Assembly: GCA_021791415.1 (NCBI GenBank)
Contig: JAJYWQ010000050.1
Coordinates: forward strand, 1 to 64,000
Source: a bacterium
GTDB taxonomy: Bacteria > Chloroflexota > Dormibacteria > Aeolococcales > Bog-877
Direction: 5' to 3'
DNA: 64,000 bases
Below the pieces are notes generated by a model. That model ran no database searches. It was not told the origin of the DNA and was given only the letters and a program-made list of their open reading frames with translations. Each line of letters begins with the position of its first letter. The first letter of the stretch is position 1. A program made the position numbers and the translations under genes. This document shows positions 1,914 through 10,790 of the stretch, in pieces.

Positions 1914-2951
1914 TCAGGTGAATCGGCGCCGAAGTCCCCAGTAGGCAAGCCCGCCGAGGGCAAGCGCCGCGACGATGAATACCCCCATCTCCAGCCACTG
2001 GAACGGCCAGAAGCGACTTCCCGGCTGGAAGCTGGCCACGGTGTGGTAGGTCAGGGACAGCTTGCGAACGCAGGCGGCGTGGATCGACATTATCTGGGCC
2101 GGGGTCGGCGGCTCCCCGCCGAGGTGGGCGTAGCCGGAACAGATCCGAATGAACTCCTTACCGGTGAGCGCACGGTTCGCTCTGTCGACCAGCGCGGTCG
2201 ACAGCACCCAAGCGTTGCGGATCACCACTGGGGGCGCGGTTAGCGAGTAGGTGCCGGAGGGCGCCGAGAGCTGCAGGCTGCCGAAGCCGGTGGTCAGGAG
2301 CGAGAAGGACCGATGCACCGGCACCGCGAAATTGGGGCGCATCCAGTTCTCCACCGCGAGGCGGGCCGCCACGAAGCCCACGAGCGTGATCGCCATGGCA
2401 GGGACCGTCCGGCGGGCCAGGACACCGGCGGCCACCCCAAGTGCGAAGGCAAACAGCGTGTACCCGATCGGCGCCACCCCGTGCCAGCTGAACACGCCCG
2501 GGGAGAAGCGGTCCTGCTTCACGGCGTCGAGAGGGCCCGCCCACCAGTCGAGCATCCAGATCAGAAGCCCGGTGAGCGCCACGGCCGCCAGCCCCACCAC
2601 GGCCAGCTTGGTCGCGAGCCAGCGCCGCCTTGTGACGCTCTGGGTCCAGGCCAGACGGTAGGTGCCGCTCTCCAACTCGCTGGCGATGAGGGGGGCGCCG
2701 AAGAAGAGCCCGAGCAGCGCGGGCGTGATGATCCCGATCACCGGCAGCAGCACCTGCAGCTGGGGATACTCGGTGAACACCGGATTGGGCGCGGTCTGGC
2801 AGTCTCCCACCGCCCTGCAGGCACGCTGGAACGCGTCGTTCACCTCCGCCAGGTGAGGGCCGGTCAGGGTGATCACCAGCGCCAGGGCGGCGAGGGCGGC
2901 GCAGCCGATGATCGCCCCGGTTCGGAACTGGCGCAGGGTCAGGCGGATCAC
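1914..2951 (-). CDS. ABC-2 type transporter permease
   Basis: 345 aa, several hydrophobic helices; ESGTYRLAWTQSVTRRRWLATKL typical of ABC-2 permeases; 4-nt overlap with the ATPase gene. Confidence 0.85.
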   Translation of the reverse strand: MIRLTLRQFRTGAIIGCAALAALALVITLTGPHLAEVNDAFQRACRAVGDCQTAPNPVFTEYPQLQVLLPVIGIITPALLGLFFGAPLIASELESGTYRLAWTQSVTRRRWLATKLAVVGLAAVALTGLLIWMLDWWAGPLDAVKQDRFSPGVFSWHGVAPIGYTLFAFALGVAAGVLARRTVPAMAITLVGFVAARLAVENWMRPNFAVPVHRSFSLLTTGFGSLQLSAPSGTYSLTAPPVVIRNAWVLSTALVDRANRALTGKEFIRICSGYAHLGGEPPTPAQIMSIHAACVRKLSLTYHTVASFQPGSRFWPFQWLEMGVFIVAALALGGLAYWGLRRRFT

Positions 2952-3838
2952 CGGGCTTCCGCCAACTTCGGCCGGCGGGCGTCTGCGGCGGCGCGGGCCA
3001 TGTAGGCGAGCACCAGGTCTTCGAGGCCCATCCGCTCCACGGTCCAGGAGGGGTCCAGCACCTGGGCGGAGGTCCGGACTACGAACGTGCTCTGCCGGTC
3101 GGTGTGGTCCTCGACAATCACCTGCTGGTCACCTGGCAGACGCCCGCGATCTCGGCGCGGGCCGGTGAGCCGGTAGTGGGTGGCAACCAAGTCCTCGATG
3201 TCGCCGGCGACTCGGACCCGGGACCCCACCAGCACGATCAGGTAGTCGCACACCCTCTCGAGGTCGGAGACGAGGTGGGAGGAGAAGATGACGGTGGCCG
3301 CCTGCTCCACCACGACCTGCATCAGGTCCTGGAGGAACTCCCGCCGGGCGAGGGGATCCAGGCTCGCGATGGGCTCGTCGAGCACCAGCAGCTCCGGCCG
3401 TTTGGCAACCGCCAGGGTGAGGGCCAGCTGGGCACGCTGACCGCCCGAGAGCCGGCCGGCCTTCTGGTTCGGGTCGAGCCCGAGGCCGGCGACGCGGTCG
3501 GCGGCGAGCTCGGTGTCCCAGGTCGGGTTCATCCAGGCGCCCAGCCGCAGGTGGTCTCGGACAGACATCCCGGCGTACACCGGGGCGTCCTGGGCCACGA
3601 ACCCGATGCGGGCCAACTGGGCCGGCGAGGCGCCGGGGCGCGCGCCGAGGACGCGCATCGACCCGGAGGTGGGCTGCAGGAGGCCGACTGCCAGGTGGAG
3701 GAACGTGGTCTTGCCGGCCCCGTTGGGTCCGACCAGCCCGACAACCTTGCCCGAAGGGATGGCCAGCGAACACTCCGAGAGGGCCCAGTTCTGACCGTAG
3801 CGCTTGCCGAGGCCGGCAGCTTCGATGACCGCGGTCAC
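2948..3838 (-). CDS. ABC transporter ATP-binding protein
   Basis: Walker A GPNGAGKTTF, signature LSGGQRAQLALTLA, Walker B LLVLDEPIASLD. Confidence 0.95.
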   Translation of the reverse strand: MTAVIEAAGLGKRYGQNWALSECSLAIPSGKVVGLVGPNGAGKTTFLHLAVGLLQPTSGSMRVLGARPGASPAQLARIGFVAQDAPVYAGMSVRDHLRLGAWMNPTWDTELAADRVAGLGLDPNQKAGRLSGGQRAQLALTLAVAKRPELLVLDEPIASLDPLARREFLQDLMQVVVEQAATVIFSSHLVSDLERVCDYLIVLVGSRVRVAGDIEDLVATHYRLTGPRRDRGRLPGDQQVIVEDHTDRQSTFVVRTSAQVLDPSWTVERMGLEDLVLAYMARAAADARRPKLAEAR

Positions 3839-4227
3839 GCTACCCCCTCCGCCTGAAAGGATCGAACGACGTCGCGAAAGAGCGCCTCGATGCTCTCGTC
3901 ATCGAGGCCTGCGCTCCGCGCCCTCTCCAGCCAGCGCCTGAGCTCGAGGCGGAGGGGCCCGTGGGCGGCGAGCGACTCGTCGGCCAGGGTCCTCAGGACG
4001 AAGGTGCCGATACCCGGGCGGGCGGCCACCAGGCCCAGGTTCTCCAGCTCCTTGTAGGCCTTGAGGACCGTATTCGGATTGATGGCCAGGGTGCCAACCA
4101 CCTCTCTCACCGTCGGCAGCTGGTCGCCGGCCTCGAGCAGACCGAGCCGCAGCGCCTGGCGCACCTGGTGGACGATCTGCTGGTACGGCGCGACCCCCGA
4201 ACGGACGTCGAGGTGGAAGGATATCAC
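3835..4227 (-). CDS. GntR family (YtrA-type) transcriptional regulator
   Basis: SGVAPYQQIVHQVRQALRLGLLEAGDQLPTVREVVGTLAINPNTVLKAYKELE is a canonical GntR wHTH; short C-terminus; overlaps the ABC ATPase start. Confidence 0.92.
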   Translation of the reverse strand: MISFHLDVRSGVAPYQQIVHQVRQALRLGLLEAGDQLPTVREVVGTLAINPNTVLKAYKELENLGLVAARPGIGTFVLRTLADESLAAHGPLRLELRRWLERARSAGLDDESIEALFRDVVRSFQAEGVA

Positions 4228-4247
4228 TCGATACTCCAGTTAACTAG

Positions 4248-4269
4248 GTGTTCTAGCGTACTAGCACAC
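4248..4269. promoter_or_regulatory. Candidate GntR/YtrA operator (inverted repeat GTGTTCTAG-CGTA-CTAGCACAC)
   Basis: 9-nt arms, 8/9 complementary; lies 21 bp upstream of the GntR start codon and abuts a TATAGT -10-like hexamer on the minus strand (4268-4273). Confidence 0.6.
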
Positions 4270-4791
4270 TATATCTCCACACTGCCCGGGTGTCAAGGGC
4301 GCGTTCGGCCACGGTGTCCCGGCTGTGGCCTCTGCCCCCACGTGGGCACCCTGACCGGGTTCGCGGTCGGCGGCCGGAGCCGCGAGCGAGCGGTACGACG
4401 TACCCCGGCCATCGTTGATCACTTGGGAAGCGCGTCCTCCGTGATCGTTGAGTCTGGAAGAGATGACAAGTTGAGAGGGGGGGTCGCAGCCACGGTCGGG
4501 CACCTTGGAAGGCGCCCAGAGCGGCGGGCACGGAGGCCGGGCGGCGTTCGACCTGGGTCCTGAGGGCAAGGGGGCTGCCCGTGGTGTTGAGGGTGAGCGG
4601 AGGCCGGATCCTGGCCGGGGCCGCGTCATCGCTGTTCAGGACCCGGTGCAGGAGGTGGGGGCCGATCGTGGTGCAGGTGGACCTGGTTGCCCGCCGACTC
4701 CAAGGCGGTCAGCTTCATCACCGGGTGAAATGCGGCACTCGGGCCCGCTCGCCACCGCCGCGCTCAACCCGGCCCTCGCCGTGCCCGGCGC

Positions 4792-5751
4792 TCAGCTGGC
4801 GTCCGGCTGGTCCCTCACCGGACCCATTAGCTCGCCGAGATTCACGACGGGCCCTAGGTGACGCAGCTTGTCCGGATTGACTACGGAGCGGATGGCTGTC
4901 ACTGACCCCTGCGCGATCTCGAGGGCCACGACCGCCGCCACCCGTCCGGCCGGGTCCACGACCACCGCGCCCGGCTCCCCGTTGACCTGCTCCAGTCGGA
5001 GGCCCAGCTCCAGTCTGGCCGCCAAGCGGGCCAGGCCAAGCAGGAAGCGGGCCACCCGCTGCCGCCCCGTGGCCGGCTCGGCCAGCGCCGGTGCCTGGCC
5101 GCCACCGTCGCCGATCATGGTGACGTCGGCGGCCAGCACCGCCATCAGGTCATCGACGTTCCCCGCTTGCAGTGCGGTGAAGAAGCGCCCCGCCAACTCC
5201 GCTTGTGCGGCCGGGGCGATCTGGAAGCGCCGCCGCCCGCCTTCGACGTGACGCCGCGCCCGGACGGCGATCTGGCGGACGTTGGCCTCAGACTTGCCGA
5301 CCATCGCGGCGATCTCCTGGTGGCCGTAAGCGAACACCTCGCGCAGCAGGAAGACGGCTCGCTCGACCGGTGAGAGCCGCTCCAGCAGGAGCAGGAAGGC
5401 CATGGAGAGCGATTCGTTCAGCTCCGCGTACCTCTCCACCTGGCTGTCCGCGCTCAGGACCGGCTCGGGCAGCCATTGCCCGACGTACTGCTCCCGGCGG
5501 GAGCGTGCGGAGCGGAGCTGGTCGATGGCGAGGCGGGTGGTGACGGTGACCAAGTACGCCTTGGGGGAGCTGACCGCCTCCTTCTCGCTTCCGCCGACGG
5601 CGCGGTGGTAGCGGAGGAACGCCTCCTGCACGATGTCCTCGGCCTCGGCGACGCTGCCCAGCATCCGGTAGGCGATGGCAAAGAGCAGTGGGCGGGTGCG
5701 CTCGAAGACCTCGGCAGTGGCGGAGGCGCTGAGTGCGGTGGCTCTCTCCAT
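4792..5751 (-). CDS. ECF41-type RNA polymerase sigma factor (SigJ-like) with SnoaL-like C-terminal domain
   Basis: Sigma region 2 (AYRMLGSVAEAEDIVQEAFLRY) and region 4; ECF41 hallmarks WLPEP, DGGGQ and NPDKLRHL in the linker/C-terminal extension. Confidence 0.92.
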   Translation of the reverse strand: MERATALSASATAEVFERTRPLLFAIAYRMLGSVAEAEDIVQEAFLRYHRAVGGSEKEAVSSPKAYLVTVTTRLAIDQLRSARSRREQYVGQWLPEPVLSADSQVERYAELNESLSMAFLLLLERLSPVERAVFLLREVFAYGHQEIAAMVGKSEANVRQIAVRARRHVEGGRRRFQIAPAAQAELAGRFFTALQAGNVDDLMAVLAADVTMIGDGGGQAPALAEPATGRQRVARFLLGLARLAARLELGLRLEQVNGEPGAVVVDPAGRVAAVVALEIAQGSVTAIRSVVNPDKLRHLGPVVNLGELMGPVRDQPDAS

Positions 5752-5792
5752 CGGGGAGCGAGTCTATCTGTGGCCAACGCCCGCCGGTGGTG

Positions 5793-5819
5793 AGTCACAA
5801 CCCGGCCCCTCATCTCGTC
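5793..5819 (+). promoter_or_regulatory. Candidate ECF41 promoter AGTCACA-N16-CGTC
   Basis: Read directly between sigJ-like gene and epimerase; 6/7 match to the ECF41 -35 TGTCACA and exact CGTC at 16-nt spacing. Confidence 0.65.
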
Positions 5820-5857
5820 TCGGTTGCAGATGGCGGCAACTGGAGGAGGAGTGACTG

Positions 5858-6829
5858 ATGAGGGTCTTCGTGGCAGGAGGCAGCGGTGTGGTGGGCCAGC
5901 ATCTGATCCCCATCCTGGTGGCGCGTGGTCACTCCGTGGTCGCTCTGACCAGGCGCGCCGAGAGGGCGGACCAGCTCCAGGGTCTGGGAGCGGAGCCGGC
6001 GGTCGCCGATGCGCTGGACCGGGACGCGATCTTGGCCGCGGTGACCCGCGCCCGGCCGGAGGTGGTCATCCACGAGCTCACGGCGCTCAAGGGGCTGGGC
6101 GACTTCCGGCACCTCGACCGCACCTTCGGACCGACCAACCGGCTCCGAACTGAGGGCACTGACATCCTGCTGGCCGCGGCTATGGGGGCCGGTTCGGCCC
6201 GCTTCATCGCCCAGAGTTACGCCGGCTGGCCCTTCGCCCGAGAGGGCGGACCGGTCAAGAGGGAGGAGGACCCGCTGGACCCCACGCCGCCACGGGAGGC
6301 GCGGCAAAGTTTGGCCGCCATCCGGTACCTCGAGACGGCGGTGCTGCAGTCGCCAGACCTTGAGGGGCTGGTACTTCGATACGGTGGCCTCTACGGCCCC
6401 GGCACCTCTGTCGCACCCGGCGGAGAACAGTTCGAGGACCTCCGGCGCCGACGGTTTCCAATTGTGGGCAGCGGCGCGGGGGTGTGGTCGTTCGTGCACG
6501 TCGGCGACGCGGCGATGGCCACCGCCCTGGCCGTCGAGCGCGGCGCCCCCGGCGTCTACAACATCGTAGACGACGATCCGGCGCCGGTCGCCGAGTGGCT
6601 GCCAGAACTGGCGCGAGCCATCGGTGCCCCCCCGCCCCGACACGTTCCCATCTGGTTGGGACGCCTGCTGGGCGGCGAGTTCGTGGTCACGGTGATGACC
6701 GAGGCTCGTGGCGCCTCCAATGCCAAGGCGAAGCGCGACCTCGGCTGGGCGCCGAGCCAGCCATCGTGGCGTGGCGGCTTCGCCGCCCTGGCGGCACCCG
6801 GCGCCATGGAGCAGAGAGCGGCCCATTGA
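5858..6829 (+). CDS. NAD-dependent epimerase/dehydratase (SDR) family protein
   Basis: MRVFVAGGSGVVGQHLIPILVARGHSVVALTR Rossmann GxxGxxG; YxxxK-like region and epimerase C-terminus. Confidence 0.9.
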   Translation: MRVFVAGGSGVVGQHLIPILVARGHSVVALTRRAERADQLQGLGAEPAVADALDRDAILAAVTRARPEVVIHELTALKGLGDFRHLDRTFGPTNRLRTEGTDILLAAAMGAGSARFIAQSYAGWPFAREGGPVKREEDPLDPTPPREARQSLAAIRYLETAVLQSPDLEGLVLRYGGLYGPGTSVAPGGEQFEDLRRRRFPIVGSGAGVWSFVHVGDAAMATALAVERGAPGVYNIVDDDPAPVAEWLPELARAIGAPPPRHVPIWLGRLLGGEFVVTVMTEARGASNAKAKRDLGWAPSQPSWRGGFAALAAPGAMEQRAAH

Positions 6830-7142
6830 GCGACCTTGCACGGCCGGGCGCACAGCCCGGAGCCCGCCCGCCCGGCCGCCAAGGGGGCGGCAGCCGCGCC
6901 GCCGGGCGAGGGCCCAGCTCCCTCGCTGCCGATCTCCGCAGGCCGCCTCTCGGTGTCATTCCTAGTTGAGGGAGCGATCCCCCAGGGTGCGATTCTCGCT
7001 GAGGCAATGCGAACTGTTGCCAACCTCTTCGCAGTGGACCATACTTCGACCGGCAAGCTGCCGGGGGCCTGGGGGGTCTGGCTCTTCACCAGAGACGCCC
7101 ACAGGGCTGGCCAGTTCGGCACCCGTCGCACGGAGGGTTCTC

Positions 7143-7637
7143 ATGGGACAGACTCTGCGGGTCACGGTGAACGGGGAGGCGCGCACTGACGAGGTCGAGC
7201 CGCGCCTCCTCCTGGTGCATTACCTGCGCGAGACATGCGGGCTGACCGGCACCCACGTGGGCTGCGACACCAGCCAGTGCGGCGCCTGCACGGTGCTCCT
7301 GGACGGGGCGGCTGTCAAGTCGTGCAACATGCTGGCGCTGCAGGCGGACGGCGCCGAGATCACCACCATCGAGGGGCTGGCCCCCGAGGGAGGGCTGCAC
7401 CCCCTCCAGACCGCCTTCTGGGAGAACCACGGGCTGCAGTGCGGCTACTGCACACCTGGGTTCATCATGGCGGCCGCGGCGCTCCTGGCGGAGAACCACG
7501 ACCCCTCCGATGAGGAGATCGGGAGAGGGCTGGAGGGGAACCTCTGCCGGTGCACCGGCTACGTCAACATCCGCAAGGCCGTGAGGGCGGCGGCCCAGGC
7601 GATGCGTGAGGGGGCCACGGCCCCCATCGGAGGGTAG
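7143..7637 (+). CDS. Molybdenum hydroxylase small 2Fe-2S subunit (CoxS/XdhC-type iron-sulfur subunit)
   Basis: Starts [37 protein letters not shown] and LCRCTGY cysteine motifs for two 2Fe-2S clusters. Confidence 0.93.
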
Positions 7638-7641
7638 GGGA

Positions 7642-9987
7642 ATGGCGGTCACTCAGCTGATCGGAGCCCGGGTTCAGCGTCGCGAGGACCCGCGGCTGAT
7701 CACCGGCCACGGACGCTTCATCGAGGACCACACCCTGCCCGGGCTGACGCACCTGGCGGTGGTTCGCAGCCCCCACCCCCATGCCCGGATCCTCGGCATC
7801 GACAGCGCGGCGGCCCGCGCACTGCCTGGGGTGTTGGCGGTATTCACCGCCGCTGACTTCCACAAGGTCCTCAGCGGCAGCATGCCCGTCACTCCCTCCT
7901 TCGCGCCGGAGAAGAAGTACGTCCCGGAGCGCTTCCCGATCGCCGAACGCGAGGTCTGCTTCCAGGGCGAGCCGGTGGCCGTGGTGGTGGCCCAGGACCG
8001 CTACCTGGCCGCCGACGCCGCCGACCTGGTCCAGGTCACCTACGAGCCCCTGCCGGCGGTGGTGGACCCCGAGGTGGCGATGAGCCCGGGAAGCCCCCTG
8101 GTCCACAGCGACGGACCGGACAACATCGGCTGGGACATGACCTACGCGGGCGGGGACATCGAAGCCGCCTTCGGCAGGGCCGAGGTGGTGGTGAAGGAGC
8201 GCATCCTCCAGCAGCGGCTGGCGCCCACCGCTATGGAGCCCAGGGGGGTGATGGCGAGCTACTCCCCCTACGACGAGCAGCTGACCCTCTGGCTCAGCAG
8301 CCAGAACCCGCATTTCATCCGCCTCTTCGTGTCCGGGGCCATGGGGATCCCGGAGAGCCGGGTCCGGGTGGTGTCCCCAGACGTGGGCGGGGGCTTTGGG
8401 AGCAAGATCAGCCCCTACCCTGAGGACTACCTGGTCCCGGCCGCCTCCAAGCTCCTGCAGCGGCCGGTGCGCTGGATCGAGACCCGGACCGAGTCCGTCA
8501 TGACCACCATCCACGGCCGAGGGCAGGTGTTCACCGCGGAGGCGGCGGCCCTCCGGGACGGGACCCTGCTGGGGCTCCGCCTGACCCAGGTGCTGGACCT
8601 CGGCGCCTACCACGGCACCTTCGGCGCCTTCCAGGCCTGCGCCTGCCTCATGTCGGGAGGGGTGTACCGCTGGGAGGCGATCTCGGCCCGGACCGTGGGG
8701 GTGCTCACCAACAAGGTCCCCACCGACCCCTACCGGGGGGCGGGCCGGCCCGAGGGGACCCACCTCTGCGAGCGGATGGTGGACCGGGTGGCCGATGAGC
8801 TGGGGATGGACCCCGCCGAACTCCGGCGCAAGAACTTCGCCCGGGAGTTCCCGTTCCAGAACAACTTCGGCCTGACCTACGACTCCGGCAACTACGACGG
8901 CACCCTGGACCGGGCCCTCGAGCTCTCCGACTACCAGGGCTGGCGGCGGCGGCAGGCGAGCGCCAGGGAGGAGGGCCGGCTCATCGGCGTCGGGCTCTCC
9001 ACCTGGGTGGAGATCTGTGGCCTCGGCCCCAGCGCCCCCACTGCTGCGGCCACCGGGGGGATCGCCCTGGTGGAGGCAGCCCAGATCCGCTTTCTGCCCT
9101 CCGGCTCGGTGGCTGCGTACGTCGGGACCCACGCCCACGGGCAGGGGCACGACACCACCTTCTCGCAGCTGGTGGCGGAGACCCTGGGGGTGCCGCTGGA
9201 GGCGGTCGACCTGCGCCACGGGGACACCGCCGAGGGGCCCTCGTTCGGCTACGGCACCTATGGCAGCCGCAGCCTGGCGGTGGGCGGGATGGCCCTCTAC
9301 ACCGCCTCCCAGGAGATCCTTGCCAAGGCGAGGAAGCTCGCCGCCCACCTTCTGGAGGCCGCCCCTGACGACCTGGAGTTCACGGAAGGCGCCTTCACGG
9401 TCCGGGGCAACCCCCAGGCCAAGAAGACGATCCAGGAGGTGGCCCTGGCCAGCTACGGCGGGAGTCTCCCCCAGGGGATGGAGCAGGGGCTGGAGGCGGT
9501 GAGCCACTTCGACCCCCCCAACTTCGTTTGGCCGTTCGGGGCCCACGTCTGCGTCGTCGAGGTGGATCGTGAGACCGGGGCTGTGGAGATCCTCAGCTAC
9601 ACCGGGGTCGATGACTGCGGCAACGTCATCAACCCGATGATCGTCGAGGGCCAGGTCCAGGGCGGCATCGCCCAGAGCATCGCCCAGGCGCTCTTCGAGG
9701 AGGTGGTCTACGACGGGGAGTCGGGACAGCTCCTGACCGGGACCATGCTCGACTACCTGGTCCCCACCATGAACGAGCTCCCGACCCCCAAGCTCGACCG
9801 GACAGTGACTCCCAGCCCCACCAACGCCCTCGGTGTGAAGGGGATCGGCGAGGCGGGGACGATCGCGGCCTCGGCGGCGGTGATCAACGCCGTCTGCGAC
9901 GCCCTGAGACCGCTGGGGATCCACCACGTGGACATGCCCGCCAGCCCGGACCGGCTCTGGCGGCTGATGCAGGAGGCAGGGCGGTGA
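7642..9987 (+). CDS. Molybdenum hydroxylase large subunit (CoxL form II-like / xanthine dehydrogenase family)
   Basis: GARVQRREDPRLITGHGRFIEDH N-terminus, PDVGGGFGSK, PYRGAGRPEG (form II-like, not AYxCSFR), GVKGIGEAG. Confidence 0.93.
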   Translation: MAVTQLIGARVQRREDPRLITGHGRFIEDHTLPGLTHLAVVRSPHPHARILGIDSAAARALPGVLAVFTAADFHKVLSGSMPVTPSFAPEKKYVPERFPIAEREVCFQGEPVAVVVAQDRYLAADAADLVQVTYEPLPAVVDPEVAMSPGSPLVHSDGPDNIGWDMTYAGGDIEAAFGRAEVVVKERILQQRLAPTAMEPRGVMASYSPYDEQLTLWLSSQNPHFIRLFVSGAMGIPESRVRVVSPDVGGGFGSKISPYPEDYLVPAASKLLQRPVRWIETRTESVMTTIHGRGQVFTAEAAALRDGTLLGLRLTQVLDLGAYHGTFGAFQACACLMSGGVYRWEAISARTVGVLTNKVPTDPYRGAGRPEGTHLCERMVDRVADELGMDPAELRRKNFAREFPFQNNFGLTYDSGNYDGTLDRALELSDYQGWRRRQASAREEGRLIGVGLSTWVEICGLGPSAPTAAATGGIALVEAAQIRFLPSGSVAAYVGTHAHGQGHDTTFSQLVAETLGVPLEAVDLRHGDTAEGPSFGYGTYGSRSLAVGGMALYTASQEILAKARKLAAHLLEAAPDDLEFTEGAFTVRGNPQAKKTIQEVALASYGGSLPQGMEQGLEAVSHFDPPNFVWPFGAHVCVVEVDRETGAVEILSYTGVDDCGNVINPMIVEGQVQGGIAQSIAQALFEEVVYDGESGQLLTGTMLDYLVPTMNELPTPKLDRTVTPSPTNALGVKGIGEAGTIAASAAVINAVCDALRPLGIHHVDMPASPDRLWRLMQEAGR

Positions 9988-10790
9988 TTCCAGCAGCATT
10001 CAAGTACTCGAAAGCCGGCTCGGTGAGGGAGGCGGTGGCCCAGCTCCGGGAGGCCGGACCGGAGGCCAAGGTGATCGCCGGGGGGCAGAGCCTGATCCCG
10101 CTCCTGCGGCTCAGGCTCTCCCAGCCGACCCACCTGGTGGACGTCAACGGGGTTCGTGAGCTCGACTACGTCCACCCGGAGGGCGACGTCCTGCGCGTGG
10201 GGGCCCTGACCCGGCACTCCACCCTGGCCCGCTCCGAGCTGGTCCAACGCCACCTTCCCCTGCTGGCGGAGATGGCCGCCCAGGTGGGCGACCCGCAGAT
10301 CCGGGCCCGGGGCACCCTGGGCGGAGTCTTCGCCCATGCCGACGCCGCGGGAGACTACCCCACGCTGGCGGTGATGCTCGACGCCACCATCGTCACGGAC
10401 CGGCGTCGGGTTGCCGCCCGGGACTTCTTCCAGCACCTCTTCACCACAGTGCTCGCCGAGGACGAACTGGTCTGCGAGGTGGTCTTCCCCATGGCCCCGG
10501 GACCCCACCGGTACCTCAAGTTCCGGCGCCGGCTCTATGACTGGGCCATCGTCGGGGCGGCCGTACAGAAGCTGGACTCCGGGTGGCGAGTCGGTCTGAC
10601 GCACGTCGGCCCCACCGCGGTGCGAGCGGCCGCGGTGGAGGCCCGCCTGCTGGCAGGGGCCACCTTCCAGGAAGCCGCCGGCGCCGCCGCGGAGGAGCTC
10701 GACCCCCCGAGTGACGTGCGCGCCTCGGCCGACTACCGACGCCATCTCGCCCGGGTCCTCACCCGCAGGGCCCTGGAACAGGCGGCCTGA
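9984..10790 (+). CDS. Molybdenum hydroxylase FAD-binding medium subunit (CoxM-like)
   Basis: VIAGGQSLIPLLRLRLSQPTHLVDVN and RGTLGG(V)FAHADAAGDYPT FAD-binding motifs; ATGA-type overlap with the large subunit gene. Confidence 0.93.
   Translation: MIPAAFKYSKAGSVREAVAQLREAGPEAKVIAGGQSLIPLLRLRLSQPTHLVDVNGVRELDYVHPEGDVLRVGALTRHSTLARSELVQRHLPLLAEMAAQVGDPQIRARGTLGGVFAHADAAGDYPTLAVMLDATIVTDRRRVAARDFFQHLFTTVLAEDELVCEVVFPMAPGPHRYLKFRRRLYDWAIVGAAVQKLDSGWRVGLTHVGPTAVRAAAVEARLLAGATFQEAAGAAAEELDPPSDVRASADYRRHLARVLTRRALEQAA

Follow-up and report, generated by a model that had tools for sequence, protein, structure and literature searches.

A probable ECF41 sigma factor-epimerase module in a Dormibacteria genome and a residue-base rule for the first base of the -10 element

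We considered the first 64,000 nucleotides of contig JAJYWQ010000050.1 (the window), in which a sigma factor gene and an NAD-dependent epimerase/SDR gene are transcribed divergently from a gap of 106 bp (5752-5857); their features are collected in Table 1. A GntR-family regulator (PF00392) and, downstream of it, ORFs for an ABC transporter permease and ATPase occupy 1914-4227 on the minus strand. Downstream of the epimerase gene, a set of CO-dehydrogenase-like ORFs (small, large and medium subunit) occupies 7143-10790 and is followed by MoxR-like and VWA-like ORFs. The large subunit of this set reads PYRGAGR, which we take to be the form II type and not that of a true CO dehydrogenase. A search against Rfam gave no match in 3800-7200, and a search for terminators around the start sites was likewise negative.

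Table 1. Coordinates of genes and regulatory elements at the sigma factor-epimerase locus
Feature	Coordinates	Strand	Basis
ECF41 (SigJ/SigX4-type) sigma gene, 319 aa	4792..5751	-	domain, family-model and motif matches
sigma2 (residues 16-84), WLPEP linker, sigma4 (117-168), SnoaL_2-like C-terminal extension bearing DGGGQ and NPDKL	within 4792..5751	-	
Asp77 codon, region 2.4 'LAIDQLRSAR'	5521..5523	-	counted from start codon at 5751
-35 element AGTCACA, epimerase promoter (putative)	5793..5799	+	sequence, genome pattern search, conservation
16-bp spacer between -35 and -10	5800..5815	+	sequence
-10 element CGTC (putative)	5816..5819	+	sequence; within TCTCGTCTCG
Predicted transcription start, G, 7th base after CGTC	5826	+	inferred from spacing
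Likely ribosome-binding site, purine-rich GGAGGAGGA-type stretch	5843..5851	+	sequence
NAD-dependent epimerase/SDR gene ('COE' target), ATG at 5858	5858..6829	+	domain and family-model matches

An earlier note on this DNA had assigned the sigma ORF to ECF41 by three signatures, WLPEP, DGGGQ and NPDKL, and all three are indeed present. The protein scored above both curated cut-offs, with 360 bits against 323 for the SigX4 model TIGR02957 and 331 against 271 for that of SigJ; Pfam matched Sigma70_r2 and r4_2 in it, with no match for a sigma3 domain. SnoaL_2 matched residues 189-265 with 24.6 bits, slightly under the 27-bit cut-off, and Mycobacterium tuberculosis SigJ (PDB 5xe7) could be aligned over nearly the whole length, to residue 296; together these matches delineate the C-terminal SnoaL-like extension of ~100 aa that characterizes ECF41. 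Also as in this family, a COE gene, the epimerase, adjoins the sigma gene, and no anti-sigma gene was seen among its neighbors in the ORF list (the other identified neighbors being the GntR regulator and the ABC transporter ORFs). Sequence evidence thus supports membership of the sigma factor in ECF41. SigJ resembles it over sigma2, sigma4 and the SnoaL_2 domain and has Asp at the position equivalent to residue 77, but is a distinct and more distant member of ECF41.

The partner protein carries an Epimerase domain, as identified by domain search. Its best NCBIfam model, matched over full length, was the AvaA7 diazo reductase NF058621, with 299 bits against a curated cut-off of 400; the protein is thus a sub-threshold relative of the AvaA7 3-diazoavenalumate reductase family (PMC10777205).

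The candidate promoter that the note had placed in the divergent region on the epimerase strand, AGTCACA-N16-CGTC, was located at 5793-5819. It agrees with the ECF41 promoter consensus, TGTCACA-N16-CGTC, at 10 of 11 positions; the first base of the -35 element is A where the consensus has T, and A is likewise found in the relative G032. The predicted start (G, 5826) would give the transcript a leader of 32 nt before the ATG at 5858; both experimentally tested ECF41 promoters start at a G (PMC3426412). The genome-wide scan suggested in the note returned WGTCACA-N16-CGTC once in 2,160,460 bp, at the epimerase site. A looser pattern, NGTCACR-N16-YGTC, had 10 sites in the genome; only two of them contained GTCACA, and both adjoin the two ECF41 genes of this genome. 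When the bases of the 106-bp intergenic region were shuffled 200,000 times, the strict motif arose six times.

Orthologs were searched for in 61 close genomes, 400 genomes of the phylum and 79 named loci. The motif preceded the orthologous epimerase in 23 of the 26 loci where an ECF41 gene was detected next to it and in 4 of the 9 loci with no ECF41 detected in the flanks (Fisher p 0.015), although some flanks in the latter class were only 1.5 kb long and absence of the sigma gene there is not proven. It lies at about -53 to -115 in the 23 loci, is kept before the epimerase in all three gene orders (divergent, COE>ECF and ECF>COE), and its conservation spans several genera. The sigma factors closest to that of the window, with 67-68% identity, are encoded in G030 and G032, again divergently from their partner genes, and form one clade with it; TCTCGTCTCG around the -10 element is invariant across the three loci. 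Since the other gene neighbors differ in G030 and G032, the sigma and epimerase genes appear to move together as a unit; for the same reason, we abandoned the idea of a functional tie between the epimerase and the CO-dehydrogenase-like genes that follow it. The sequence data support the view that the epimerase gene is preceded by an ECF41 promoter read by the adjoining sigma factor. Such an arrangement was described for ECF41 in 2012, with 15% of loci divergent (PMC3426412); the window locus is an ordinary one for the family and extends it to another lineage. Two epimerase orthologs (L120 and L121) have GGTCACA-N16-TGTC upstream and no ECF41 gene within 1.5 kb; they may be controlled by a sigma factor at a distant locus.

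Elsewhere in the genome lies a second ECF41 gene (L003, G000:C82:53259-54134), whose product is 51% identical to the window sigma factor, reads WLPAP in place of WLPEP and has Asn at position 77. TGTCACA-N16-TGTC is situated upstream of this gene, and a carboxymuconolactone decarboxylase-like ORF follows it in the same direction.

When sigma factors associated with CGTC and with TGTC were compared, position 77 alone separated the two groups fully, as Asp and Asn, respectively. Asp77 was found with CGTC in 65/65 ECF41 loci and Asn77 with TGTC in 20/20, i.e. 85 loci of 85. As position 77 had been picked from the first data set (53/53 Asp-C and 16/16 Asn-T), a fair test was provided by 22 held-out plasmid loci, chosen for diversity of organisms and blind to residue and motif: all 16 Asp/Asn loci among them followed the rule (12 Asp-C, 4 Asn-T, none against), one locus each was Ser-C and Thr-C, and four had no strict motif. 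In a maximum-likelihood tree built without column 77, residue and base each change nine times, in parallel; the well-supported independent pairs agreed in 6 of 6 cases (sign test p 0.031). Position 77 carried all 0.778 of the 0.778 bits of information on the base, with 0.43 bits for the next-best position. With looser -35 patterns, the opposite base (C for T or T for C) appeared at a few loci; these are probably chance matches.

We think it likely that the choice between C and T at the first -10 base is set by residue 77 of region 2.4, a two-state (Asp or Asn) switch that has flipped repeatedly together with the promoter and insulates paralogues within one genome. The chemistry is plausible: Asp could accept a hydrogen bond from cytosine N4, while Asn could donate one to thymine O4. 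Residue 77 aligns with Asp79 of sigmaL, within residues 78-82, for which Lin et al. suggested that they might read the upstream C-G (PMC6372665). In our alignment its counterpart in sigmaH is N92, a residue in contact with the adjoining -11 pair (PMC6411747); sigmaH promoters are listed as preferring C-G at the upstream base (PMC6372665). As sigmaH has Asn yet prefers C-G, the rule may hold only within ECF41 and fail outside it. The idea that single sigma residues predict promoter bases is shared with the general ECF code of Todor et al. 2020, in which, as far as the summary in PMC8103513 conveys it, such residues belong to sigma2 and sigma4. This rule is the part of the analysis worth following, as a simple and testable guide to which ECF41 sigma factor reads which promoter; it could be used in regulon prediction and in choosing sigma-promoter pairs that do not interfere.

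The locus is best explained, with a probability of about 0.85, as a typical ECF41 module in which the sigma factor would drive the divergent epimerase, Asp77 would read C, direct feedback would be missing and the paralogue would be insulated. The sigma factor would bind RNA polymerase and direct transcription of the epimerase gene from AGTCACA-N16-CGTC, the initial C of CGTC being probably read by Asp77 of sigma2; the sigma gene itself is probably transcribed independently. Promoters of this kind are turned on by ECF41 factors in B. licheniformis and R. sphaeroides, and gating by the C-terminal domain has been shown for other ECF41 members (PMC3426412); by analogy with these, the fused SnoaL-like domain would gate the activity of the window sigma factor. 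No cross-activity is expected between it and the second ECF41 factor, whose Asn77 goes with a promoter ending in TGTC.

The presence of a motif is in itself no proof of its use, and the match could have arisen by chance, with the epimerase gene transcribed by a housekeeping sigma factor. There is one mismatch to the consensus, and a one-mismatch scan of the whole 64 kb found one site versus 0.76 expected, which is not significant by itself; weight was therefore placed on the position of the motif and its conservation. With a single genomic copy at the expected place, kept over several genera and gene orders, and with no sigma70-like promoter found in 5700-5900, we regard a chance match as highly improbable. 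A real ECF41 promoter could also be served, wholly or partly, by the C82 paralogue, given the 51% identity and the GTCACA and N16 common to both motifs; against such cross-talk, which we consider quite unlikely, the paralogue has Asn77, a motif of its own that ends in TGTC, as in its clade, and an adjoining decarboxylase-like ORF, and the D-C/N-T rule had no exception in 85 loci. The residue-base covariation thus ties the epimerase site to the window sigma factor, and no cross-talk is predicted.

The note also held that the epimerase-side motif would not drive the sigma gene. No sigma-side copy was found: the strand of the sigma gene has no acceptable site in front of that gene, the best candidates matching 8 of 11 positions, which speaks against autoregulation through a degenerate ECF41 site or readthrough, as does the lack of a sigma-side motif in the divergent relatives G032, L010 and L012. 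In favor of such feedback, which we see as unlikely, G030 (sigma factor 67% identical) has TGTCACA-N16-CGTC on both sides, the second copy preceding the sigma gene, and the 2012 survey found a sigma-side motif in 36 of 55 divergent loci and a COE-side motif in 41 (PMC3426412). As that survey includes divergent loci without the sigma-side motif, a motif-less sigma gene is a known variant and not a novelty. Direct feedback on the sigma gene appears to be absent in the window, so that the circuit would run without direct positive feedback. The observation of the earlier note is confirmed, but 'complete' was an overstatement of the circuit, as no feedback element was seen on the sigma gene.

The closest described systems are Ecf41Bli-ydfG of Bacillus licheniformis and Ecf41Rsp-RSP_0606 of Rhodobacter sphaeroides (PMC3426412), which have, as the window does, a fused C-terminal extension and an adjoining COE gene. 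Their promoters, TGTCACA-N16 followed by CGTC (Ecf41Rsp) or TGTT (Ecf41Bli), with a leader of 31-32 nt (Table 5 of PMC3426412), are similar to that of the window; unlike them, the window has AGTCACA and no sigma-side motif, and its target is a divergent epimerase/SDR instead of a carboxymuconolactone decarboxylase. Among the plasmid loci (L185-L206), several ECF41 genes adjoin FAD-dependent oxidoreductases, an antibiotic biosynthesis monooxygenase-like gene or a rifampin monooxygenase; with such neighbors, the target repertoire of ECF41 may exceed the types first named.
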